A stretch of 21,870 bases of DNA from IMG/VR virus record IMGVR_UViG_3300023180_000457, positions 1 through 21,870 of that record, one strand, 5' to 3'. The notes below the pieces were generated by a model, which saw only the letters and a program-made list of their open reading frames with translations, was not told the DNA's origin and made no database searches. This DNA comes from a virus. The position numbers were made by a program, and so were the translations under genes. Position 1 is the stretch's first letter; every line of letters begins with the position of its first letter. Shown here piece by piece: positions 1 to 21,870 of this stretch.

Positions 1-3000
1 GTTTCTAGAATATGGAAGGGTAGAATTACTCCAGTTAATTCCATCTTCTGAGTGTATTGCCTGTGTGCTTAACTGCTTGATTGCAACAAATTTATGTCCA
101 CCTGCGGCAATCATGTTCCAGTTTCCGGCAGATGGAAGTGTTGCCGTTGTCCAGTTCGTTCCATCTTCTGTGTAGGAATAATTATCTGTTCCAGAAGCCA
201 CCGCAACAAATCTTCCGCTGGTTGCTGTGCCTTCATATCTAAATCCTGCGATTGTATTTGTACTATCTTCACTAACCTCTGTTACTGTTATAACGATATC
301 ATGCTCTCCGTCAACACCGCCAACATCCGCTCCAGAGATTGTTATTACCTGACCTACTTCGTACAATGCTCCTTCAAATGTCATTGTAACTTCATACGTT
401 CTTCCATTTTTTACTGCACTAAATGTTGCAGAGATCGGTGTTGATGTTCCTCCGGTAACAGTTCCCTGTAGGCTTGTATAAGTTTCTTTTGTTTCCCCGT
501 ATGCAATATCTTTCCAATTCAGCGTTTGGCCCATGTTAGGGATTGATGTGTCAAACGGCGGTTCACTAAATGTAACTCTAGGTTCAAATCTATAGGTATT
601 ATCAGTGAACAGCAACGGTTGCGAAGGAGTTCCAGGAATAACATGATCCCATCCTGGCGTATCGTCTGATTCTTTTCTAACCTGACAAACTTTTGACAGT
701 GTATTGTATGCTGTCACATATCCATACTGTCCCGCTCCTTTACCAGAAGTAATAATTAATCTCATTCCTAAAATGTCTGACTCTTCAGCGTCTGTGTTGG
801 ATGCCAGTGTAAGGCTGGTAGTATTTCCTTCCTGTGCGTTGTTACCTAGTAATGTATACCCCAGGCCGCCTTCTGTTGCACCAGTATCGCCAGGAGCGTT
901 TTTAACTAATGCTTCAAATACAGCATCATCTCTAATTTCCTCGTGTACCACATTTGCATTAATACCAGAACCAGTAAATGTATAATTTGCGGTTGAATAA
1001 TTTTGTCCTGCATTTCTATATTCTAATATTAGAATCTCGTCGTTGACTTCGCCGGCAAATGCTGATTCAATATATGCCTGTCCCGTTCTGTTATCAACTT
1101 CTGCATAAACAGGAGTTTCCGTAGGATCGTTGCCGTCAGCAACTGCACCAAAGTTACCATAGGATGAGTTACCATTGGTTGCTCTAATTACTCCGCCCTG
1201 TCTTGCAAACATACCAATCTGTGCATAGTAGGTAAACACAGACACAAGTTCTGCTCTACCATTGTTTTGTACCCATGCTCCCACGCCATCACTAATGACC
1301 TGCGTAAAGTCATTGGATACTATCGATTTAACTCCACCATTGTGTAATGCGCCGTCAATCTTTTGACCGACACAGTTATCACCAAAAGTGGTAACGTTTT
1401 GAATATAAGGTGATCTATTAACAATCCAGCATTCGCTGTGATCAGGACCAAAGCCCGGATCCAATGAACAGAATGCACCACCCGTTGGTAACTGATATAG
1501 TTCGTACACATTAGGTGGATTCAATGTTCCATTTAATCCCTTGACTGTCATGTCCTTGAGTGATGTTGTATCTCTCAAATAGAACATGTCGTCGTTTTGA
1601 GAACCTAGAATTAAATTTCTATAGTATCTTGCATTTAGCAAGGATCTATAATTTCCAGGATATCTTAAATCAAAAATAAATCCTTCAACAGCATTTCTTA
1701 AAAGATATCTGTATCTTGCTTCGTTAATTGTGTACACGCCAGCATTCTGTAATTTAACATATTGCAGTGCTTCTTCAGCAATAAAGTTTCTGTTTGCTCT
1801 TATGATTGTGTGAGTATTTCTAGCCGCTGGTCCTGTTATTTCATTCGAAAGGGCCGTAGTAGTTACTCCGCTACCAATGCTGTTCAATTCAAAATCTATG
1901 TATTGTCCCATTTCTGAAATTCTTGTAGAAATATCGGAACCTGCTGTATCGAGTATGTCAGAATCTTCTTCGATAGGTAGTCCTGTAACTGCATCTAAAG
2001 TTTCTGGAACCACATATACTTTTTCTAAATTATTAAACGTGGTTACTTGATCATATGTGTTTGTTACCGTCTTAGTAATTGGATTTCTGTTAATAATTTC
2101 CTGTATGATGTCAGATATTCTGTCCAGTGCTTCCTTGTAATAAGAAGTATCAACTGTGGGTAGTTCTAACGCTTTGTTTGGCCATATTGTTGTTGAACGT
2201 AATTCGCTACCAACTAATGATACATTCTTAGGAATGCTCATTGGTAAAATTTCGTAATAGTTTCCTGGAGCAACTCTAACAGTGTTTAAAACACTGTCTT
2301 CTCCTAGTTCCATTATTCTGTCAAGTGCAAATTTTACTGTTCTGTATGGTTTGTTTGGATCCTTGCCTCTATAAACATCCTCATCATCATCGAGTGCAAC
2401 TGCAGGATCAGCACTAACGTACCAAACCTTAGTAATGATTCCTACCCTTCCATAATCAACAGTGTTATCAGGTTGGACTATCAACGAATCAGATGCATTA
2501 CCTATTGCTAGGTTTGTAGTTCCTAGCGTTGATCCATCGCCTGCAAGTTCTCTAGATAAACCGTAGGTTAAGATGTCACCAACGTTACTTAAGGCAACAT
2601 TCGGTCCTGCTAATAGTACAATGTCCCAATAATAAAAACCCGAACCGTTGTCTCCTGGATAATTGTCATTGCTACTTGTGTGTTGGAAATTACATTTATA
2701 TGTAGAACCTCTGTATAAAACTAGATCTCCAATCGCATATGATGAGCCGGATGTCCAACTGTTTCTCCAGTAACTACCTGTAACCACTATTTCCCAGTTT
2801 GATGCATCTAGATAATCTAGTGTTGATCCGTCTGCCGATATATCAGTATCAATTAACGCTCTGTATAGATAGCCGCCTCTGGTTACTATGTCACCCGTTT
2901 GATAACTTGTTCCACTGTTCCATATTCCAGAATATCTAATACCGTTCTGTAACAATGACCAATTCATGTCCGGTTGTGGTTGATCATAAATGCTTGTCGC

Positions 3001-3822
3001 AGGATTTATATTTTGATGATTAGTGTTAGAAATATAGAGGAAACCTCCATGCTTTACAACATCACCTATTGCATAGAATGCAGAAGGAGACCATTCATTT
3101 CTAAAATTATAACCCGGAAATTCAACATCAAAATATTGTGGCTGTATATCTTCGTGATTTGAAACATGACCTTCATTAACACGAAGTATGCTTCCACCGT
3201 ATAATACTAAATCATTCTTAATGTATCGATAATTTCCTGTCTGGAATGCTCCGGTATAATTAATACCCTCATAAAGAGTTTCCCATAATTCTCCCGTGCT
3301 ATCATCTTGTGAATCAGCATTACCAACTTCAGGACCAACCTCCGATGTGTCTGAAGTATGCTCTGCAATACATCTATAAACAAAGCCTCCGTATTTTACA
3401 ACATCACCGATGCCGTATCTAGTTACTGGTTGCCAATTTACTGTCCAATTAAATCCTGTAGTGTATTCGGCCCATTTTTCTGCATTAGCAATAAATGTAA
3501 ACCCTGAATTATGTCCTTGCAAACAAATGTATAATACACCTCCGTAGAGAGCAAGGTCTCCAGGTGCATATGTTATTGATGAATTCCAGTCGCCTCTAAA
3601 TGCATAACCGTCGGTCATCTTTAGCCATGCTGGTGTAGGATCAGTATCTCCCGGATTTGCTAGATATGCTTGATCGGTAACAAAGGATGATGACGTATGT
3701 TTTCTAACACAGACATAAGTTACACCTCCGTATCTTATAACATCATCTTTGTTATAAGCGGTGGCTCCTAACCATGCTCCGCGCCATGTATATCTAATTC
3801 GACTTATCTTAAATTCTGCCAT
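1..3822 (-). CDS. Giant tail-fibre/adhesin-like structural protein, C-terminus beyond left edge
   Basis: This frame is open without a stop from ATG at 3822 to the window edge (1274 codons). Residues about 11-390 are seven tandem modules of the form Y..GD.V.YGG..Y.C...H, resembling carbohydrate-binding module family 5/12. Residues about 474-560 look like the start of a right-handed beta-helix (YRTVKFALD, VRVAPGNYYE, IPKNVSLVG). Residues about 800-895 hold a block I recognise from large structural proteins of marine T4-like phages (ALHNGGVKSIVSNDF, ISDGVGAWVQNNGRAELVSV). The visible end has two repeats (YTEDGTNW, HSEDGINW) like Asp-box/BNR propeller blades. The start lies 5 bases after the preceding stop. 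Its inferred role is host-surface recognition as part of an adsorption structure. The overall type is well supported; the receptor and the exact virion location are unknown. Confidence 0.88.
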   Translation of the reverse strand, partial: MAEFKISRIRYTWRGAWLGATAYNKDDVIRYGGVTYVCVRKHTSSSFVTDQAYLANPGDTDPTPAWLKMTDGYAFRGDWNSSITYAPGDLALYGGVLYICLQGHNSGFTFIANAEKWAEYTTGFNWTVNWQPVTRYGIGDVVKYGGFVYRCIAEHTSDTSEVGPEVGNADSQDDSTGELWETLYEGINYTGAFQTGNYRYIKNDLVLYGGSILRVNEGHVSNHEDIQPQYFDVEFPGYNFRNEWSPSAFYAIGDVVKHGGFLYISNTNHQNINPATSIYDQPQPDMNWSLLQNGIRYSGIWNSGTSYQTGDIVTRGGYLYRALIDTDISADGSTLDYLDASNWEIVVTGSYWRNSWTSGSSYAIGDLVLYRGSTYKCNFQHTSSNDNYPGDNGSGFYYWDIVLLAGPNVALSNVGDILTYGLSRELAGDGSTLGTTNLAIGNASDSLIVQPDNTVDYGRVGIITKVWYVSADPAVALDDDEDVYRGKDPNKPYRTVKFALDRIMELGEDSVLNTVRVAPGNYYEILPMSIPKNVSLVGSELRSTTIWPNKALELPTVDTSYYKEALDRISDIIQEIINRNPITKTVTNTYDQVTTFNNLEKVYVVPETLDAVTGLPIEEDSDILDTAGSDISTRISEMGQYIDFELNSIGSGVTTTALSNEITGPAARNTHTIIRANRNFIAEEALQYVKLQNAGVYTINEARYRYLLRNAVEGFIFDLRYPGNYRSLLNARYYRNLILGSQNDDMFYLRDTTSLKDMTVKGLNGTLNPPNVYELYQLPTGGAFCSLDPGFGPDHSECWIVNRSPYIQNVTTFGDNCVGQKIDGALHNGGVKSIVSNDFTQVISDGVGAWVQNNGRAELVSVFTYYAQIGMFARQGGVIRATNGNSSYGNFGAVADGNDPTETPVYAEVDNRTGQAYIESAFAGEVNDEILILEYRNAGQNYSTANYTFTGSGINANVVHEEIRDDAVFEALVKNAPGDTGATEGGLGYTLLGNNAQEGNTTSLTLASNTDAEESDILGMRLIITSGKGAGQYGYVTAYNTLSKVCQVRKESDDTPGWDHVIPGTPSQPLLFTDNTYRFEPRVTFSEPPFDTSIPNMGQTLNWKDIAYGETKETYTSLQGTVTGGTSTPISATFSAVKNGRTYEVTMTFEGALYEVGQVITISGADVGGVDGEHDIVITVTEVSEDSTNTIAGFRYEGTATSGRFVAVASGTDNYSYTEDGTNWTTATLPSAGNWNMIAAGGHKFVAIKQLSTQAIHSEDGINWSNSTLPYSRN
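2644..3792 (-). repeat. Seven tandem carbohydrate-binding-like modules in the giant adhesin
   Basis: Repeats start at about residues 11, 73, 124, 187, 238, 295 and 350, with a period of 51-63 residues. Each carries an aromatic/Trp segment, then Y(x)2GD(L/V)V(x)YGG(x)2Y, often ending C(x)3H(T/N)S. Examples are YAPGDLALYGGVLYICLQGH and YGIGDVVKYGGFVYRCIAEH. The copies differ clearly from one another, so this is an old protein-level duplication and not a recent DNA repeat. The similarity to CBM5/12 is by eye. Confidence 0.75.
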
Positions 3823-14015: not shown

Positions 14016-14669
14016 TTAAATGGTAGTTTTTTGATTCATTTTGTCTTGATATATAGTGCCCTCGAAGGTATTTTCAAAGTCTTGCTGTGAAATGTGCTTT
14101 AAATTACCATGCTGAGGACCCAATTTATCAGGTATAAATGCTCCTGATTGCACTACCCTATAGAACTGTGTATGGGGAAATTCCTTAATTACACGCTCTG
14201 TTTGGCTTAACCAATTGCCAAAAAACGTTGCGCTATCCGTTGATTTCTTATAATTGTGCGTATCTGCGTACACATTATTAAACTTTCCGTTCAATCCTTG
14301 ATAGTCAAAACCGTGTATGTAGATTATTTTGTGCCCGTTTGATGCAGCAAACCACAATGCTGTAGGACCACTCGACCACCCCTTGTGCGGGTTAAAAAGA
14401 TTGATTTTATCCTTGGTTTTTATTCCTTTATTAGGATTCGTCCAAACTGTTCCTTTTTGATAATAGCCAGAATCTATTAATTCGTTAACCATTTTAACAT
14501 CAACTGCTACTAGATAATGTGGATCAAACTCTCTGTATTGTGCATTACATCCGTAGACTGTGCCAATGTCCAAAAGTTTTTCGCAGTTAATCGCCAAGCG
14601 ACTGTTTCCGTTGCCTAAAACAAACGCTATATCTTTAAGTTTTGGGGTATTTTTATTCTTCTTGCTCAA
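14016..14669 (-). CDS. DUF115 / sialyltransferase-like protein
   Basis: With the TTG at 14669 the protein has 217 residues. Residues about 16-24 read FVLGNGNSR and 38-43 VYGCNA, followed by a PHYLVAVDVKMVNEL segment. Around residues 98-122 is SSGPTALWFAASNGHKIIYI followed by HGFDY. This pattern (GNGxS, CN, SGxxA, IYxxGxD) resembles DUF115/MptE-like proteins and GT42-type sialyltransferases, which bind nucleotide-linked donors. The start is uncertain: TTG 14669 has GGAA 6 bases upstream, and TTG 14702 lacks a ribosome-binding site. No ATG precedes the conserved GNG motif. It overlaps the preceding gene and lies inside the head-assembly operon. The enzymatic role and substrate are unproven. Confidence 0.75.
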   Translation of the reverse strand: MSKKNKNTPKLKDIAFVLGNGNSRLAINCEKLLDIGTVYGCNAQYREFDPHYLVAVDVKMVNELIDSGYYQKGTVWTNPNKGIKTKDKINLFNPHKGWSSGPTALWFAASNGHKIIYIHGFDYQGLNGKFNNVYADTHNYKKSTDSATFFGNWLSQTERVIKEFPHTQFYRVVQSGAFIPDKLGPQHGNLKHISQQDFENTFEGTIYQDKMNQKTTI

Positions 14670-14892
14670 CTGGTGTTCCGTACATTTGTCTAATGAAGCC
14701 AAGTTCGGAATTTTTTTCCGCTTCGTGTGCTTCTGCTTGGAGTCGCAGTTGATTGATTTGTCTTAAGGTGAGTCGAATTTTTCTAGTATCATCATAGTTG
14801 ACAACAGAAGAATCCTTGCCGTTATCATATCTACGATCTACAGCAAAGTCGTTTATGTCGTCATTGAAATATAAAAATTCTCTAAGAAGCAT
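14653..14892 (-). CDS. Small core-like protein in gp67 position, 79 aa
   Basis: It starts MLLREFLYFNDDINDFAVD and continues with a helical charged region (KIRLTLRQINQLRLQAEAHE), ending ELGFIRQMYGTPVEQEE. I associate this layout with the small protein encoded directly after gp20 in T4-like cyanophages. T4 gene 67, a prohead core protein of about 80 residues, occupies the same place, but homology is not shown here. The ATG at 14892 is chosen because the protein then begins 11 bases after the gp20 stop; longer forms would overlap gp20 out of frame. No Shine-Dalgarno sequence is seen. A late-like box ATAAATA ends 4 bases before the ATG, so a leaderless message is possible alongside readthrough from gp20. 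Confidence 0.8.
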   Translation of the reverse strand: MLLREFLYFNDDINDFAVDRRYDNGKDSSVVNYDDTRKIRLTLRQINQLRLQAEAHEAEKNSELGFIRQMYGTPVEQEE

Positions 14893-16618: not shown

Positions 16619-19375
16619 TTATACACTAAACGCATCATTTGTCAACCCCGACGTAACACCAATGTGTTTCTGTGCTAATGCATTGCTCATTCTTGTTAAT
16701 CCAACTAATTCTTGTATGCTACTATTTAACTCCGTCATAAGTTCTACTGGTGACTTTGTGGATTCCATGGGCGACAGTGCAGCAGTTTTCATTTCGGATT
16801 CTGTCATTGGTACTCCGGCCGTTGCTGCTGCCTTTTCTTCTGCCGTTAGCATATTTTGGACATTGCCAATAAAGGACTGCATGGTTCCTCGCACACCGCC
16901 CACGACAACTTCTGCCATCTGCGCCGGTGTAAGCACTGCTTCCATTCCGTGCAGCGTTGCAGGTGTTCCTTCTCCAAAGTTTCCAAACAGTTTGCCCAAT
17001 GCGCCCAGCGTACCGCCACTAAATTGTGCTCCTGGCAATATATCATGTTCAGTGTCGGCATTTTTTGCTTCTGCTAGTTCTTTTTCTTTGAGCTCCGCAA
17101 TCTTCTTTTCCATCTCGAGGATTCTCATTCTGGATTTTTGCTGTCCAAAACTTTCTCTACCGAATCCGCCATCCATTAAGCCATATTCGTCCTCGCCAGC
17201 CAAACTTCTCTCGAGCCTTGCCTTCTCCTTGGCAATCTCCGCTTCCATTTCGTCCATGGTGTTGATGCCGGCACCCGTTATGTCAACTAATTTTTTGGCT
17301 ACGTTTTGTCCATCTATCAAACCAAAACTAAGGCTGTCCACAATACCGCCGATCGTTGATGATGCTCTTTCACCTGCGGTCGCTGCTTCGCCTTCTTTTA
17401 ATCCCAGATATTCTTCAGCATTGAATCCTGCCGATGCTCCCTGTAGTAGTGCATCTCCGATCATGTATGCAGTTCCTAGGACCGGAACTGCTTTTAGGGC
17501 AGTCTTTCCTACACCCTTCATTATGGCGCCGGTGGTTCGTGCTGCATTGCCTGCTACGGAACCTGTGGTTCTTGCTGCCGTGTTGGCTACCGCACCTGTG
17601 GGAGGCTTAGGAACTTTGGGAGGCTTCTTGCCTCTGAATAATTTACCTACCTTGCCTACTGCTCCGGCACCCTGTGCCAATGCAGCAAGGCCTGCCGCTG
17701 CCGCAAGTGCCATTAGGGCAACTTCCGCTCCTATGGCTGCTGCTGCTACCTTCTCAAAATTGTCTCCACGTGTTGCCGTGCCAAGCACCGTTTCAGAAAA
17801 TGCCTGTGCTGCCTTGGATGCAGGCTCAAACATCTTTCTAAAACCAGCAATGGCTTCAGAACCAACCTGATTCATGGTTTGGGTCATTTCGCCGGCTGCG
17901 GTGTTAATTTGTAATCTAAATGATGCTATGGTAGAGGCATCAATTAATGGTTCACCATCTGGTGTTAGTTTGATTCCCTTGGCTGCGTTCTCCGCAGCAA
18001 TTCTCAATTCCTCTTCTGTTTTCTTTTGTATTTCCGCAACCGTTTTTTGACGTGCTGCCACATCGTGTGCTGCCACAACGAATGCATTCATTTCCGGACC
18101 GCCAAATAAACCTAGCGTCTGTCCAATTGCTGACTGAGCAAAATCCTTGGCTTCCTTGGAATAGATGTCATAGAACCTATCGCTGAACCCTTCCTGCAGA
18201 TCACCGGCTTGAATTGCTCGGAAAATTCCCTGTGCTTCCTGACCCGATTCTTTCAGGTATGCCATTGCTCTGATACCTTCCTCGGAAGTTGCGGTACCAG
18301 TTGCTAAAATTTCCTTGAGGCCCGTTCTGTGAGCAGCAGGAATGGATTGCATTAATTTTTCCATCTCCGCCTGTTGCTTCGGATTTAGTTTAGACATCAT
18401 GATACGATACTGCGCATCCGCCTGTCTAGCATCCGCCTCGGCCTGTAGTGCCTCCTTAGATTGTCCCGTTAACTTGGAAACTGCATCCAAGTTCTTCAAG
18501 TATGTTGCTGTGCCTTCTCTCAGTTCAGTGTCGGTCATTCCCTGCAGGCGACCGTTCTTCTGAAGCATCTTGCTGTAGTTTAGGAATCCTTCGTTCATCT
18601 GGGTAGAAGTATAACCCAGTCTTGATAGATCGTTAAATATCGGAGTATCTTTTAATTCCTTTCCGAATCTTGCTAGTCTCTTGGCACCTTCTTGTGTGCT
18701 TCCACCTAGATACATTAATGCTTCGCTGTTCTTGCCTACCATTCCTACGAAGTCGTCTAGGCTGATCCCCATCTTGGTTGCTGCCGCAACAGCACCATTA
18801 ACGTTACCAGCAAAGTTAACACCAGCCTGTGAAGCCTTTGTGAATGCATCATATGACTTGTCCAGTGCTTTCATCTGAGCACCGTATGCGGCTTCGAATG
18901 CCTCCGCAGCCATTCCTAGGCCCTTGATTGCACCTCCTGCCGATGCCATAGCGGACACTGCGCTGGATAGGCTTCCGTCCATGGACATGAACGAAGTGGA
19001 TACTTTATTGGCTGATTTGAGTAGTCCTAAACCTGCACCAGCAACTTTCTCAATGACGCTTCTGGCAAAATTTAGGAAATTTGTGCTTCGTTTTTGGGCT
19101 TCTGTATTATCATCTACAGCATCGGTATTTTCTTGCTGTGCTTTGTATGATCTTAGATTGGATTCTGTAAATTTTTTGCCTGATGCTGCTGCATCTTTGG
19201 TCTTTTTAGCCAATCCTTCAATGGCTGTGTTTAGGTCTCCGCCGCTTTTGAAGCCTTGGGCTGCATTGGCAGCAATGACCTTTTGCATTGCCAAAATCTG
19301 CTTGAGCGTGGCTTCGGTCGCGGCATTATTAAGAATAATGTCTTCTTGTCCAAATTGTCCTGTTACGTCAGCCAT
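16619..19375 (-). CDS. Tail tape measure protein
   Basis: This 918-residue protein is mostly helical, rich in Ala, Gly, Lys, Glu and Met, with long coiled-coil-like stretches. Hydrophobic segments are visible (VALMALAAAAGLAALAQGAG at about 550-575, and an Ala/Gly-rich patch near 125-150). At residues about 801-815 is GEGTPATLHGMEAVLTP, a motif common near the C-terminus of phage tape measure proteins. Such proteins set tail length and are delivered into the cell envelope with the DNA. T4 gp29 is 590 residues, so a tail longer than that of T4 is possible. The ATG at 19375 has a weak GGGA about 10 bases upstream. Its divergent neighbour, the gp26 frameshift pair, would be its chaperone. The gp29-equivalent role is inferred. 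Confidence 0.82.
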   Translation of the reverse strand: MADVTGQFGQEDIILNNAATEATLKQILAMQKVIAANAAQGFKSGGDLNTAIEGLAKKTKDAAASGKKFTESNLRSYKAQQENTDAVDDNTEAQKRSTNFLNFARSVIEKVAGAGLGLLKSANKVSTSFMSMDGSLSSAVSAMASAGGAIKGLGMAAEAFEAAYGAQMKALDKSYDAFTKASQAGVNFAGNVNGAVAAATKMGISLDDFVGMVGKNSEALMYLGGSTQEGAKRLARFGKELKDTPIFNDLSRLGYTSTQMNEGFLNYSKMLQKNGRLQGMTDTELREGTATYLKNLDAVSKLTGQSKEALQAEADARQADAQYRIMMSKLNPKQQAEMEKLMQSIPAAHRTGLKEILATGTATSEEGIRAMAYLKESGQEAQGIFRAIQAGDLQEGFSDRFYDIYSKEAKDFAQSAIGQTLGLFGGPEMNAFVVAAHDVAARQKTVAEIQKKTEEELRIAAENAAKGIKLTPDGEPLIDASTIASFRLQINTAAGEMTQTMNQVGSEAIAGFRKMFEPASKAAQAFSETVLGTATRGDNFEKVAAAAIGAEVALMALAAAAGLAALAQGAGAVGKVGKLFRGKKPPKVPKPPTGAVANTAARTTGSVAGNAARTTGAIMKGVGKTALKAVPVLGTAYMIGDALLQGASAGFNAEEYLGLKEGEAATAGERASSTIGGIVDSLSFGLIDGQNVAKKLVDITGAGINTMDEMEAEIAKEKARLERSLAGEDEYGLMDGGFGRESFGQQKSRMRILEMEKKIAELKEKELAEAKNADTEHDILPGAQFSGGTLGALGKLFGNFGEGTPATLHGMEAVLTPAQMAEVVVGGVRGTMQSFIGNVQNMLTAEEKAAATAGVPMTESEMKTAALSPMESTKSPVELMTELNSSIQELVGLTRMSNALAQKHIGVTSGLTNDAFSV

Positions 19376-19401
19376 TTAATAAAATCCCAGAAATATACGC
19401 A

Positions 19402-19409
19402 TATAAATA
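19402..19409 (+). promoter_or_regulatory. Late promoter -10 box TATAAATA for gp26
   Basis: An exact match to the T4 late consensus on the plus strand lies 45 bases upstream of the gp26 ATG. The predicted start is near 19415, giving a leader of about 40 nt. gp26 has GGAG 6 bases before its ATG. Confidence 0.82.
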
Positions 19410-19436
19410 CAACATAGCAATTGCTTATTAATATAT

Positions 19437-19443
19437 TATTTAT
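19437..19443 (-). promoter_or_regulatory. Late promoter -10 box ATAAATA for the tape measure/head operon
   Basis: Minus-strand GATAAATA lies 61 bases upstream of the tape measure ATG, with a predicted start near 19431. It sits downstream of the plus-strand promoter, so the two promoters face each other and the 5' ends of their transcripts overlap by about 15 nt. Confidence 0.68.
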
Positions 19444-19454
19444 CGGAGATAAAA

Positions 19455-20351
19455 ATGGACGAAAATATCGAGTTACCAAAGGTAGACGTATCCGGCCCGG
19501 CTCCTGTTCAAGAAAAGAAACAGAGTCCGCTTACTGCCTACTACAGACAACCTAAAATTTACATGAAGTTACCCAGTAATGGTGATTTCTACCCAGAAGA
19601 TGCACTGGACAAGAGCGAGGATGGTCAGTATCCTGTCTTTTCAATGACAGCAAAAGACGAACTGATTCTTAAGACTCCTGACGCCCTGTTAAGCGGTGCT
19701 TCAACCGTGTCAGTGATCGAGAGCTGCATTCCTGCAATCAAGGATGCTTGGCAAATGCCATCAATTGATGTGGATGCTGCATTGGTTGCTGTTAGAATTG
19801 CAACCTACGGCGAAAAGATGGATCTTGATTCCAATTGTCCAAAGTGCAGCGAAGAACTAAGGCACGAATACGATCTAACAGAATTTTTAAATCAATTAGG
19901 TAGTTTTAAATACACCAAGCAAATTCCCGTTGGAGAATTGGTATTCAACATTCGTCCGTTTACATACCGAGAAACCACAAAGAAAGCAATTACTAGAATT
20001 GAACAGGAAAAAATTTATGCAATCGTCAATGACGAAAACATGAGTGATGAAGAAAAGCTCGAAAGATTTGGCACAAGTTTTGTCAAGATCACGGAACTAA
20101 CCGTTGAGTTGATTGCCGATGCAGTACACAGAATTGATACTCCGAACGGTTCTGAAACTGATCGCGATGCAATTAAAGCATTCATTCTAAACTCAGAGCA
20201 TAAAGTATTTGACACTATCAATACTAAATTAGTAGAAATGAAACAGACACTTGATTTAAAAGTAACTGGAGCAAAATGTGATAAATGTGAACACACATTT
20301 GACATTGCGATAGGGATGGATCAAGCGGATTTTTTCGCCGCAAGATCTTAA
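19455..20351 (+). CDS. gp26: Baseplate/tail-assembly protein, T4 gp26-like (zero-frame product)
   Basis: This 298-residue protein begins MDENIELPKVDVSG. The segment YYRQPKIYMKLPSNGDFYP (residues about 29-47) and the following VFSMTAKDELILKTPDALLS are typical of the T4 gp26 / T4 baseplate protein family. Two cysteine pairs, CPKC (128-131) and CDKC (275-278), could form one zinc site across the domain. In T4 gp26 is assigned to the baseplate hub or its assembly. Here it lies divergently next to the tape measure gene. T4 gp26 is 208 residues, so this one is longer. Near its end, T TTT TTC (20330-20336) probably redirects some ribosomes to the -1 frame. The ATG has GGAG at 6 bases and a consensus late promoter upstream. 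Confidence 0.85.
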   Translation: MDENIELPKVDVSGPAPVQEKKQSPLTAYYRQPKIYMKLPSNGDFYPEDALDKSEDGQYPVFSMTAKDELILKTPDALLSGASTVSVIESCIPAIKDAWQMPSIDVDAALVAVRIATYGEKMDLDSNCPKCSEELRHEYDLTEFLNQLGSFKYTKQIPVGELVFNIRPFTYRETTKKAITRIEQEKIYAIVNDENMSDEEKLERFGTSFVKITELTVELIADAVHRIDTPNGSETDRDAIKAFILNSEHKVFDTINTKLVEMKQTLDLKVTGAKCDKCEHTFDIAIGMDQADFFAARS

Positions 20352-20375
20352 CCCTTCCTTTGCCGGAGATCTTGC
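20312..20375 (+). other. Candidate -1 programmed ribosomal frameshift signal
   Basis: Three elements are in the right order. AGGGATGG (20312-20319) is SD-like. The heptamer T TTT TTC (20330-20336) is in the correct phase with gp26 codons TTT TTC. A perfect 9-bp stem GCAAGATCT/AGATCTTGC (20340-20348 with 20367-20375) has one further G-U pair and a 16-nt loop. The order resembles the E. coli dnaX signal. The 3-nt spacer to the stem is shorter than usual. Confidence 0.72.
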
Positions 20376-20563
20376 AGGAAGTCAAGAAATTAGACAAAGA
20401 GGCAAGGAGCATAAAGAAAGACATTCTCAAGATGTGTTGGTACATGAGAGGTCTTTCTTACAGTGAAGGCATGCACCTAGGTCACGAGGAGCGTGAAATA
20501 GTGGGCGAAATAATAAAAGAAAATCTGGAAACTACCAAAAAAAGCGGACTGCCTTTTTTCTAG
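20336..20563 (+). CDS. -1 frame extension of gp26 (frameshifted tail-assembly product)
   Basis: This frame encodes 75 residues after the slip site: RRKILTLPLPEILQEVKKLD, a charged helical stretch, then CWYMRGLSYSEGMHLGHEER and an end KKSGLPFF. It has no ATG until residue about 33 and no well-placed ribosome-binding site. A TTG at 20360 would give a stand-alone 67-residue protein but has no Shine-Dalgarno. The -1 frame is closed upstream by TGA at 20300-20302, so it overlaps gp26 only by about 50 bases around the slip site. A -1 shift would give a 369-residue gp26 fusion, analogous to lambda gpGT made beside the tape measure gene. Both the coding character and the fusion are inferred from sequence only. 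Confidence 0.7.
   Translation, partial: RRKILTLPLPEILQEVKKLDKEARSIKKDILKMCWYMRGLSYSEGMHLGHEEREIVGEIIKENLETTKKSGLPFF
20537..20559. terminator. Possible weak bidirectional terminator between convergent genes
   Basis: A run of seven A, GC, loop GGACT, GC, a bulged C and six T form an imperfect hairpin that reads as an A/T-flanked terminator on both strands. It lies inside the last codons of the frameshift extension (KKSGLPFF) and just beyond the minus-strand stop. The GC core is only 2 bp, so it may be just a product of the coding sequence. Confidence 0.25.
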
Positions 20564-21870
20564 GCGGCCAACAACTTCTTAGCGTCCTCAACAGCATCAG
20601 GACCCAATTTTTTAAGTTCAGCAGCAAGTTTATTGATATCAACAGGAGCAGCAGTTGCACCTCCTGGTGCTGCCGTATCCTGTCCTTGTCCTGAGCCTCT
20701 GTTATCAGGTGCTGGTGTTTCTCCGCTTGTAGCGTCTGGTGCTACTGATTTTCCAGTTTGTGGATCAACTATAGCATTGTCATCCTGACCACCGCTTGTT
20801 GACGCTGTATTCGTGTCTGTGGCGCCATCTGTAGGTGCTCCTACTGGATTGCCTGTCTTGTCAAGATTGTCTTCGGGTGAAGCATCGGGCGATCCTGCTT
20901 TTGGTTCGGCAATTGGTTTGCCAGTTTTATCCATAAGACCCGCTTTTGGAAAATTATAAGTTTTGTTCTTTTCGTCCTTGATTGACAGGTGGGTTTCACG
21001 ACCATCTTCGGACGGGCCAACAATTGTTCCTTTCATCTGTTGACCTTTCGCTGTCTTGAATGTAACTTCGGTTCCTTTTTCAATGCCTTGCTTTTTCAAT
21101 TCCTTGGCTGCTGTAAATTCTTTTTCTACTTGTTTTTCTTCCTGTGGAGAAAGACCTCTTCCAAGTCTTATGGCTCTCTGTTCCTTTGCTTTTCCTAGTG
21201 CTGTTTCGTCATCAGCGTCACTGGTTGATGCAGTATTGGTTGTGTCATCAGTTGGTGCTGGTTCGTCTCCGCCTGCATTGGTATCTGCTGCTCCAGTTGT
21301 TGAAGTATCTGAACCGCCATCGCCTGCTGTTGAATCCGTAGGTGCATCTGCATTTGTATCTGCATCTGCCGCTCCTGGATCTTGATCGCCATCTGGTGCG
21401 TCTGTTGCTGCCGGAACTTCAATCTTCATTGAGTCAAATGTTCCTTTGATAACATCATCTGCAACACCTAGTCCTTTGATTACATCGTAAACTGCTGCGC
21501 TGTCTGTGGGCGAACCTGCTTTTTTCCATGCTGTGTTTAATTTTTCTGCTGTTACCTTTGTGGTAACTTGTTTTGCTGCTCCGCTGATAGCGCCACCTAC
21601 TGCCTTAGCACCAGTTTTAAGAGCACCGCCTACTTTACTTGCTGCACCTTTAAGTGCATCCATAGGACCTTCATTTAAATTTTGTCTGTGATAATGTGAT
21701 ACTGCATCAAACACACTTTCAAACATCAGTTTGTTTTCTAACATGTGTGTGTTTACTGTTTCAACTTTGTTGAACAGCATATAAATCTGTCCTTCTGAAA
21801 GTCTTTTTACTTTATAGTCTATTGATTCTTGTGCTTTTGCAGGTGCGTCTCCAGCACCAACAACCTTTTT
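20560..21870 (-). CDS. Asp/Thr/Gly-rich structural-type protein, 5' end beyond right edge
   Basis: The frame is open from the right edge to TAG at 20560-20562 (436 residues visible). An ATG at 21780 with AAGGA about 9 bases upstream would give 406 residues. The 30 codons before it are also open and read naturally (YKVKRLSEGQIY leading into MLFNKVETVN), so the gene probably starts outside the window. Visible parts are a helical N-terminal region, a Gly/Ala/Lys-rich amphipathic stretch (ALKGAASKVGGALKTGAKAV), two long Asp/Thr/Ala/Gly-rich low-complexity linkers, a compact basic/beta segment between them (GTEVTFKTAKGQQMKGTIVG) and a helical end KKLGPDAVEDAKKLLAA. I do not recognise the family. 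A virion or injected internal protein is a guess. Its stop shares CTAG with the opposing gene. Confidence 0.75.
   Translation of the reverse strand, partial: KKVVGAGDAPAKAQESIDYKVKRLSEGQIYMLFNKVETVNTHMLENKLMFESVFDAVSHYHRQNLNEGPMDALKGAASKVGGALKTGAKAVGGAISGAAKQVTTKVTAEKLNTAWKKAGSPTDSAAVYDVIKGLGVADDVIKGTFDSMKIEVPAATDAPDGDQDPGAADADTNADAPTDSTAGDGGSDTSTTGAADTNAGGDEPAPTDDTTNTASTSDADDETALGKAKEQRAIRLGRGLSPQEEKQVEKEFTAAKELKKQGIEKGTEVTFKTAKGQQMKGTIVGPSEDGRETHLSIKDEKNKTYNFPKAGLMDKTGKPIAEPKAGSPDASPEDNLDKTGNPVGAPTDGATDTNTASTSGGQDDNAIVDPQTGKSVAPDATSGETPAPDNRGSGQGQDTAAPGGATAAPVDINKLAAELKKLGPDAVEDAKKLLAA

Follow-up and report, generated by a model that had tools for sequence, protein, structure and literature searches.

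A conserved slippery heptamer and RNA stem suggest that gp26 of uncultured T4-like phages specifies a short and a long tail assembly chaperone

The window analysed here, a stretch of 21,870 nt of viral DNA (IMG/VR record IMGVR_UViG_3300023180_000457, positions 1 to 21,870), raises the question of whether gp26 of a marine T4-like phage specifies one protein or two. The gene (19455–20351, plus strand) encodes a product of 298 aa that matches the family profile PF12322 (E 7.5e-14; 52.4 bits, over the curated cut-off of 24.5) and PHROG 150, annotated 'baseplate hub' (E 6e-16). Its zero frame ends with a TAA at 20349–20351, and a second frame, in −1 phase, is open from 20303 to 20563. The final gp26 codons, GAT TTT TTC GCC GCA AGA TCT TAA, contain a T TTT TTC heptamer (20330–20336, plus strand) that lies inside the overlap of the two frames in the canonical X XXY YYZ phase, as tandem slippage needs. 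It is followed, after a 3-nt spacer (GCC, 20337–20339), by a stem of nine perfect Watson-Crick pairs between GCAAGATCT (20340–20348) and AGATCTTGC (20367–20375), to which a U·G pair (20349/20366) adds one step, so that the two arms span 20340–20349 and 20366–20375 of the plus strand. A fusion formed at the heptamer would join 294 residues of gp26 to 75 residues of the −1 frame, giving 369 aa with the C-terminus GLPFF. The ends of both frames, the lack of a good start in the second, the phase of the heptamer, the 9-bp stem 3 nt downstream and the 369-residue fusion are all as the initial annotation had read them; its proposal that they make up a −1 cassette encoding a pair of the G/GT type is strongly supported by the comparative evidence given below. 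We conclude that, very probably, gp26 serves this phage as the short tail assembly chaperone and the fusion as the long one, comparable to G and GT of phage lambda.

Two IMG/VR scans with gp26, together with named phages, provided 108 loci with a usable junction, 96 from the lineage of the window and 12 more distant. An in-phase slippery heptamer is found shortly 5' of the gp26 stop in all 108, and the −1 frame is open past that stop in every locus except for contigs that end inside the frame. The codon triplet xxT TTT TTC is present in 96/96 lineage loci, including two in which the residue preceding the Phe pair is altered and the T of the heptamer is retained. Codon bias does not explain this choice, since TTC accounts for only about 22% of the Phe codons elsewhere in the lineage gp26 genes and TTT for 78%. 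The loci share descent and are not independent, with protein identities down to about 25%, and the conservation of the heptamer is far above chance. Among the distant loci, TTTTTTC is carried by Atu_ph07, Phosso, PAC2/Cassandra (PA5oct type), CBB, RaK2, 121Q, SCTP-2 and Vibrio 2.275.O, with TTTTTTT instead in XacN1 and RAS14 and AAATTTT in one contig (L021). A scan of IMG/VR with the S-SSM7 gene gave 79 usable cyanophage-like loci, all of which have TTTTTTC in phase. The same heptamer occurs in S-SSM7, S-CRM01, P-SSM7, S-RIM8, Vibrio D490 and Aeromonas Ah1, while that of Rhizobium RL2RES is TTTTTTG.

The stem past the heptamer is selected as RNA. Folded alone, the stem of the window has an energy of −14.6 kcal/mol (z −2.25). 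In an alignment of 70 distinct sequences, 89.9% of cells are paired, versus 33–50% when the partner is slid, and compensatory double changes, counted on a tree of gp26 proteins, occurred on 15 branches versus 0–1 in four slid controls. At the pair formed by alignment columns 15 and 42, seven branches saw GC replaced by AU, and all changes inferred at column 15 are matched by its partner. Constraint on the −1 protein fails to explain the stem changes because those observed at columns 12, 15, 42 and 45 are, on codon reading, synonymous in the −1 frame. RNAalifold returned no consensus structure for all 70 sequences, owing to a minority of members that break or shift the stem, and the pairs were therefore counted on the named stem instead. 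Stimulators of −1 frameshifting usually stand 5–8 nt from the slippery site; the 3 nt of the window is shorter, which counts against frameshifting. Such a short spacer is common across the lineage, being 3 nt in most relatives and 6 nt in members with a stem shorter at its base (for example L014). These 6-nt spacers make it plausible that the lowest pairs of the window stem open and lengthen the spacer, as had been suggested for this site. Not borne out was the upstream SD-like AGGGATGG (20312–20319, plus strand), taken at first as part of the cassette: it is present in the window and absent from the relatives, SD-like matches are not enriched at its place relative to the inside of gp26, and it is probably not functional. 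Such a stimulator is an optional feature, so its absence was not counted against the frameshift site. A long perfect hairpin, GTATGTCTC...GAGACATAC, lies past the heptamer in cyanophage loci of the S-SSM7 type (L111, 3690–3720, and similar loci of S-SSM7 and relatives); it differs in sequence from the stem of the window lineage.

In the mechanism that we propose, a ribosome at T TTT TTC would carry tRNA-Phe in both its P and A sites and would be held there by the stem 3 nt downstream. A minority of ribosomes would slip one base back, with TTT TTC re-pairing as TTT TTT. They would pass the TAA at 20349 without stopping and translate 75 further codons, yielding the 369-aa long form (TAC-NC). The C-terminal domain (C-domain, 20336–20563) would be read only after this frameshift. 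As the tail is assembled, the abundant short form (TAC-N) would coat the tape measure protein; the tape measure complex would be tied to the tail tube subunits by the C-domain of the rare long form. In T4, the same two products would be supplied by the genes of gp26 and gp51. The slippage itself, its rate and the chaperone role are what we infer from the comparisons reported here.

The −1 frame past the heptamer (20336–20563, plus strand) encodes 75 aa, RRKIL...GLPFF, and ends with a TAG; the short and long products, of 298 and 369 aa, would have a common N-terminus. Beyond the gp26 stop, the −1 frame is stop-free in 86/86 loci of equal length, and both remaining frames contain stops in the same 86. 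Its median dN/dS is 0.16, third positions vary most, and the end of the domain, NLETTKK-x-GLPFF, is nearly invariant; by these sequence measures, the −1 frame is real coding sequence and is under selection. The C-domain is confidently predicted to be a compact helical domain (pLDDT 90); jumbo phages have a homologous C-domain (prob 99.5, E 3e-22), which is mis-annotated there. Family searches with the C-domain (Pfam, PHROGs and NCBIfam) gave nothing credible. In a fold search, the top viral matches were unnamed or uncharacterised phage proteins, one tail assembly chaperone appeared at E 2.2, which is not significant, and no useful PDB match was obtained. A short made-up peptide used as query gave no match. 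The TAG of the −1 frame overlaps the stop of a convergent ORF (20560–21780, minus strand) in one CTAG (20560–20563), and the −1 frame therefore abuts the next gene exactly, with zero gap. The convergent ORF encodes a protein of 406 aa that has no family match; its sequence is rich in Ala, Asp and Thr and includes low-complexity stretches.

The comparison with T4 bears on the role of the two products. Residues 1–201 of T4 gp51 match PF12322 (E 3.9e-52), and homology links the gp26 alignment to that of gp51 (E 2e-20). For cyanophage fusions, the alignment with T4 gp51 crosses the junction and extends into the C-domain (prob 99, E 3e-18), and marine fusions align with cyanophage fusions (prob 97, E 3e-10); because the marine C-domain alone has no significant similarity to the cyanophage one, the homology of these two C-domains rests on the whole fusions. 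The marine fusions align only weakly with T4 gp51 directly, so that the link between them passes via the cyanophages. Gene number and heptamer are complementary. Of eight large uncultured contigs that bear the heptamer and may be incomplete, seven contain a single gp26-family match each; in the eighth (G008), one match over the cut-off is accompanied by a sub-threshold second with stops. S-SSM7, Ah1, Atu_ph07 and RaK2 each have a single match, and T4 has two. T4 gp26, the homologue of the window protein, keeps Phe-Phe near its end, but encoded as TTC TTT, with no heptamer, and the heptamer is kept in none of five other gp26 genes examined from two-gene phages. T4 thus has two separate genes without a heptamer, the second of which, gp51, combines a gp26-family domain with a homologous C-terminal extension, whereas the heptamer genomes have one gp26-family gene. 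The simplest reading of these sequences is that a duplicated pair replaced the frameshifted gene in the lineage of T4. As one gene with a heptamer is found where T4 has gp26 and gp51, the short chaperone is most probably gp26 and the long one its fusion. A PDB sequence search with gp26 and gp51 found no relative. The N-terminal part of the gp26 model could be aligned with the tail assembly chaperone of HK97 (2ob9; Z 5.3, 86 residues, rmsd 4.7), a weak match, with Z under 8, that stands amid unrelated helical matches in the ranking.

The divergent neighbour of gp26 encodes a putative tape measure protein of 918 aa (16619–19375, minus strand). It has no Pfam or NCBIfam match and is therefore assigned by its position and by its RaK2 counterpart, which is annotated as similar to tail tape measure protein; an alignment with T4 gp29 revealed no similarity. 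A long ORF, mostly of about 770–1300 aa, lies divergent to gp26 in nearly all lineage loci. The tape measure gene had been placed next to gp26 by the initial annotation; the adjacency stands for this putative gene and a lambda-like orientation does not, gp26 being divergent from it and not co-transcribed with it. This arrangement counts against a chaperone role, as does the classical naming of T4 gp26 as a baseplate hub protein. Because the tape measure neighbour is divergent and without a domain match, and the HK97 alignment is weak, the two gp26 products are best called putative chaperones. The divergent intergenic region (19376–19454) contains TATAAATA (19402–19409, plus strand), a T4-type late promoter sequence that 76 of 109 loci have at most 110 nt 5' of the aligned start of gp26; judging from the T4 late promoter consensus, it would serve as a late promoter.

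Frameshifting could be real and nevertheless yield baseplate hub proteins or hub assembly factors, not tape measure chaperones. Such a role would agree with the family annotation 'baseplate hub', which comes from T4 genetics, and with the failure of the C-domain to match a known chaperone C-domain family. We hold it to be unlikely, because one gene encodes a short and a long product and stands beside the putative tape measure gene, and because PMC10885494 and PMC12846349 refer to a published study that assigned tail assembly chaperone genes in T4-like phages.

Many phage annotations call the −1 frame a separate small gene, which would have its own start or be translated by coupled re-initiation at the gp26 stop, and some junctions would suit this. 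The heptamer and an ATGA stop/start overlap occur together in L022, L066, L099 and L100, where a fusion and a free C-domain could both be made. Vibrio phage K362 and Pseudomonas phage Cygsa01 (L200 and L113) have a TAATG junction and no heptamer, a possible switch to coupled re-initiation. In the window, by contrast, TTG is the sole start codon that the −1 frame offers close to the junction, occurring at +11 and +23 from the stop, and several relatives (L005, L032, L037, L042, L052 and others) have no ATG, GTG or TTG there, which argues against independent initiation and hence against a separate gene. The conserved residues of the C-domain start 5' of the candidate start codons, and a separate gene would leave the conservation of the heptamer and the stem without a reason; we give this explanation very little credence. 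Transcriptional slippage on the T6 run, leading to mixed mRNAs, appears extremely improbable: the TTTTTT run is universal, but six Ts are short for slippage of a bacterial polymerase, the second Phe codon of the lineage is always TTC and not the commoner TTT, so that the T run is not lengthened, and a covarying RNA stem just 3' suits ribosomal frameshifting better.

Ribosomal frameshifting into a chaperone pair, the reading that we prefer, has its model in the lambda G/GT system, reportedly described by Xu, Hendrix and Duda in 2004, in which a short protein and a −1 fusion are said to have a common N-terminus and to be encoded next to the tape measure gene. The putative gp26 pair is alike in these respects, with a putative tape measure gene beside it. 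The lambda heptamer is G GGA AAG, unlike T TTT TTC, and the window lineage further differs from lambda in having a stem under selection and a gp26 gene divergent from the putative tape measure gene; gp26 and lambda G are unlinked in the PHROGs, Pfam and NCBIfam libraries. The 2022 study by Vladimirov, Gautam and Davidson reportedly states that frameshifting appears conserved in several T4-like groups.

As cited in PMC10885494 and PMC12846349, Vladimirov, Gautam and Davidson (Virology 2022, 566:9-15) identified the tail assembly chaperone genes of T4-like phages, the same phage group and proposed function as for gp26 and its fusion, and their title puts the emphasis on a T4 solution without frameshifting. 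In some T4-like phages, according to the PRFect paper, frameshifting is not used and the long form has a fused gene of its own in addition to the short one (PMC10885494); the Adele paper refers to poly-T slippery sequences as known in TAC-N genes of T4-like phages (PMC12846349). To judge from that study as these papers cite it, the phenomenon was already known in kind, and the novelty at first claimed for T4-type gp26 does not hold. In Vandenendeviridae and Andersonviridae, as the Adele paper describes them, a poly-T motif likewise ends TAC-N and the −1 frame is open in all members; these are other phage families, the motif is GTTTTT, and a stem does not figure in the part of the paper that describes it (PMC12846349). 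The present analysis contributes a stem supported by covariation and the split between one-gene and two-gene genomes, and it extends the phenomenon to an uncultured lineage and to jumbo phages; the stem and the breadth may so far be undescribed. A broader proposal, to which we would give even chances, is that gp26 frameshifting is nearly universal in T4-related phages, from cyanophages to jumbo phages, outside the closest relatives of T4, with a selected RNA stem as the stimulator in the lineage of the window, and that the lineage of T4 replaced it by a gp26 + gp51 duplication. If true, what is classically called the hub role of gp26, and likewise the role of gp51 as a catalyst, would be those of two chaperone forms. 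The roles of the T4 proteins become testable as a chaperone pair. The results indicate that widespread uncultured T4-like phages, too, use a mechanism that is standard in long-tailed phages, and they account for the small ORF, called 'gp51' or hypothetical, that databases enter separately or overlook; annotation pipelines should merge both frames.

Elsewhere in the window, an ORF between the portal and prohead genes (14016–14702, minus strand) encodes a 228-aa protein that matches phrog_30607, a family of unknown function, well and the sialyltransferase family phrog_4603 weakly (E 0.009). The ORF at 1–3822 (minus strand) encodes a very large protein containing repeated modules of the type Y-x(3)-GD-V-x-YGG-x(2)-Y-x-C, which is probably a virion surface or tail protein.
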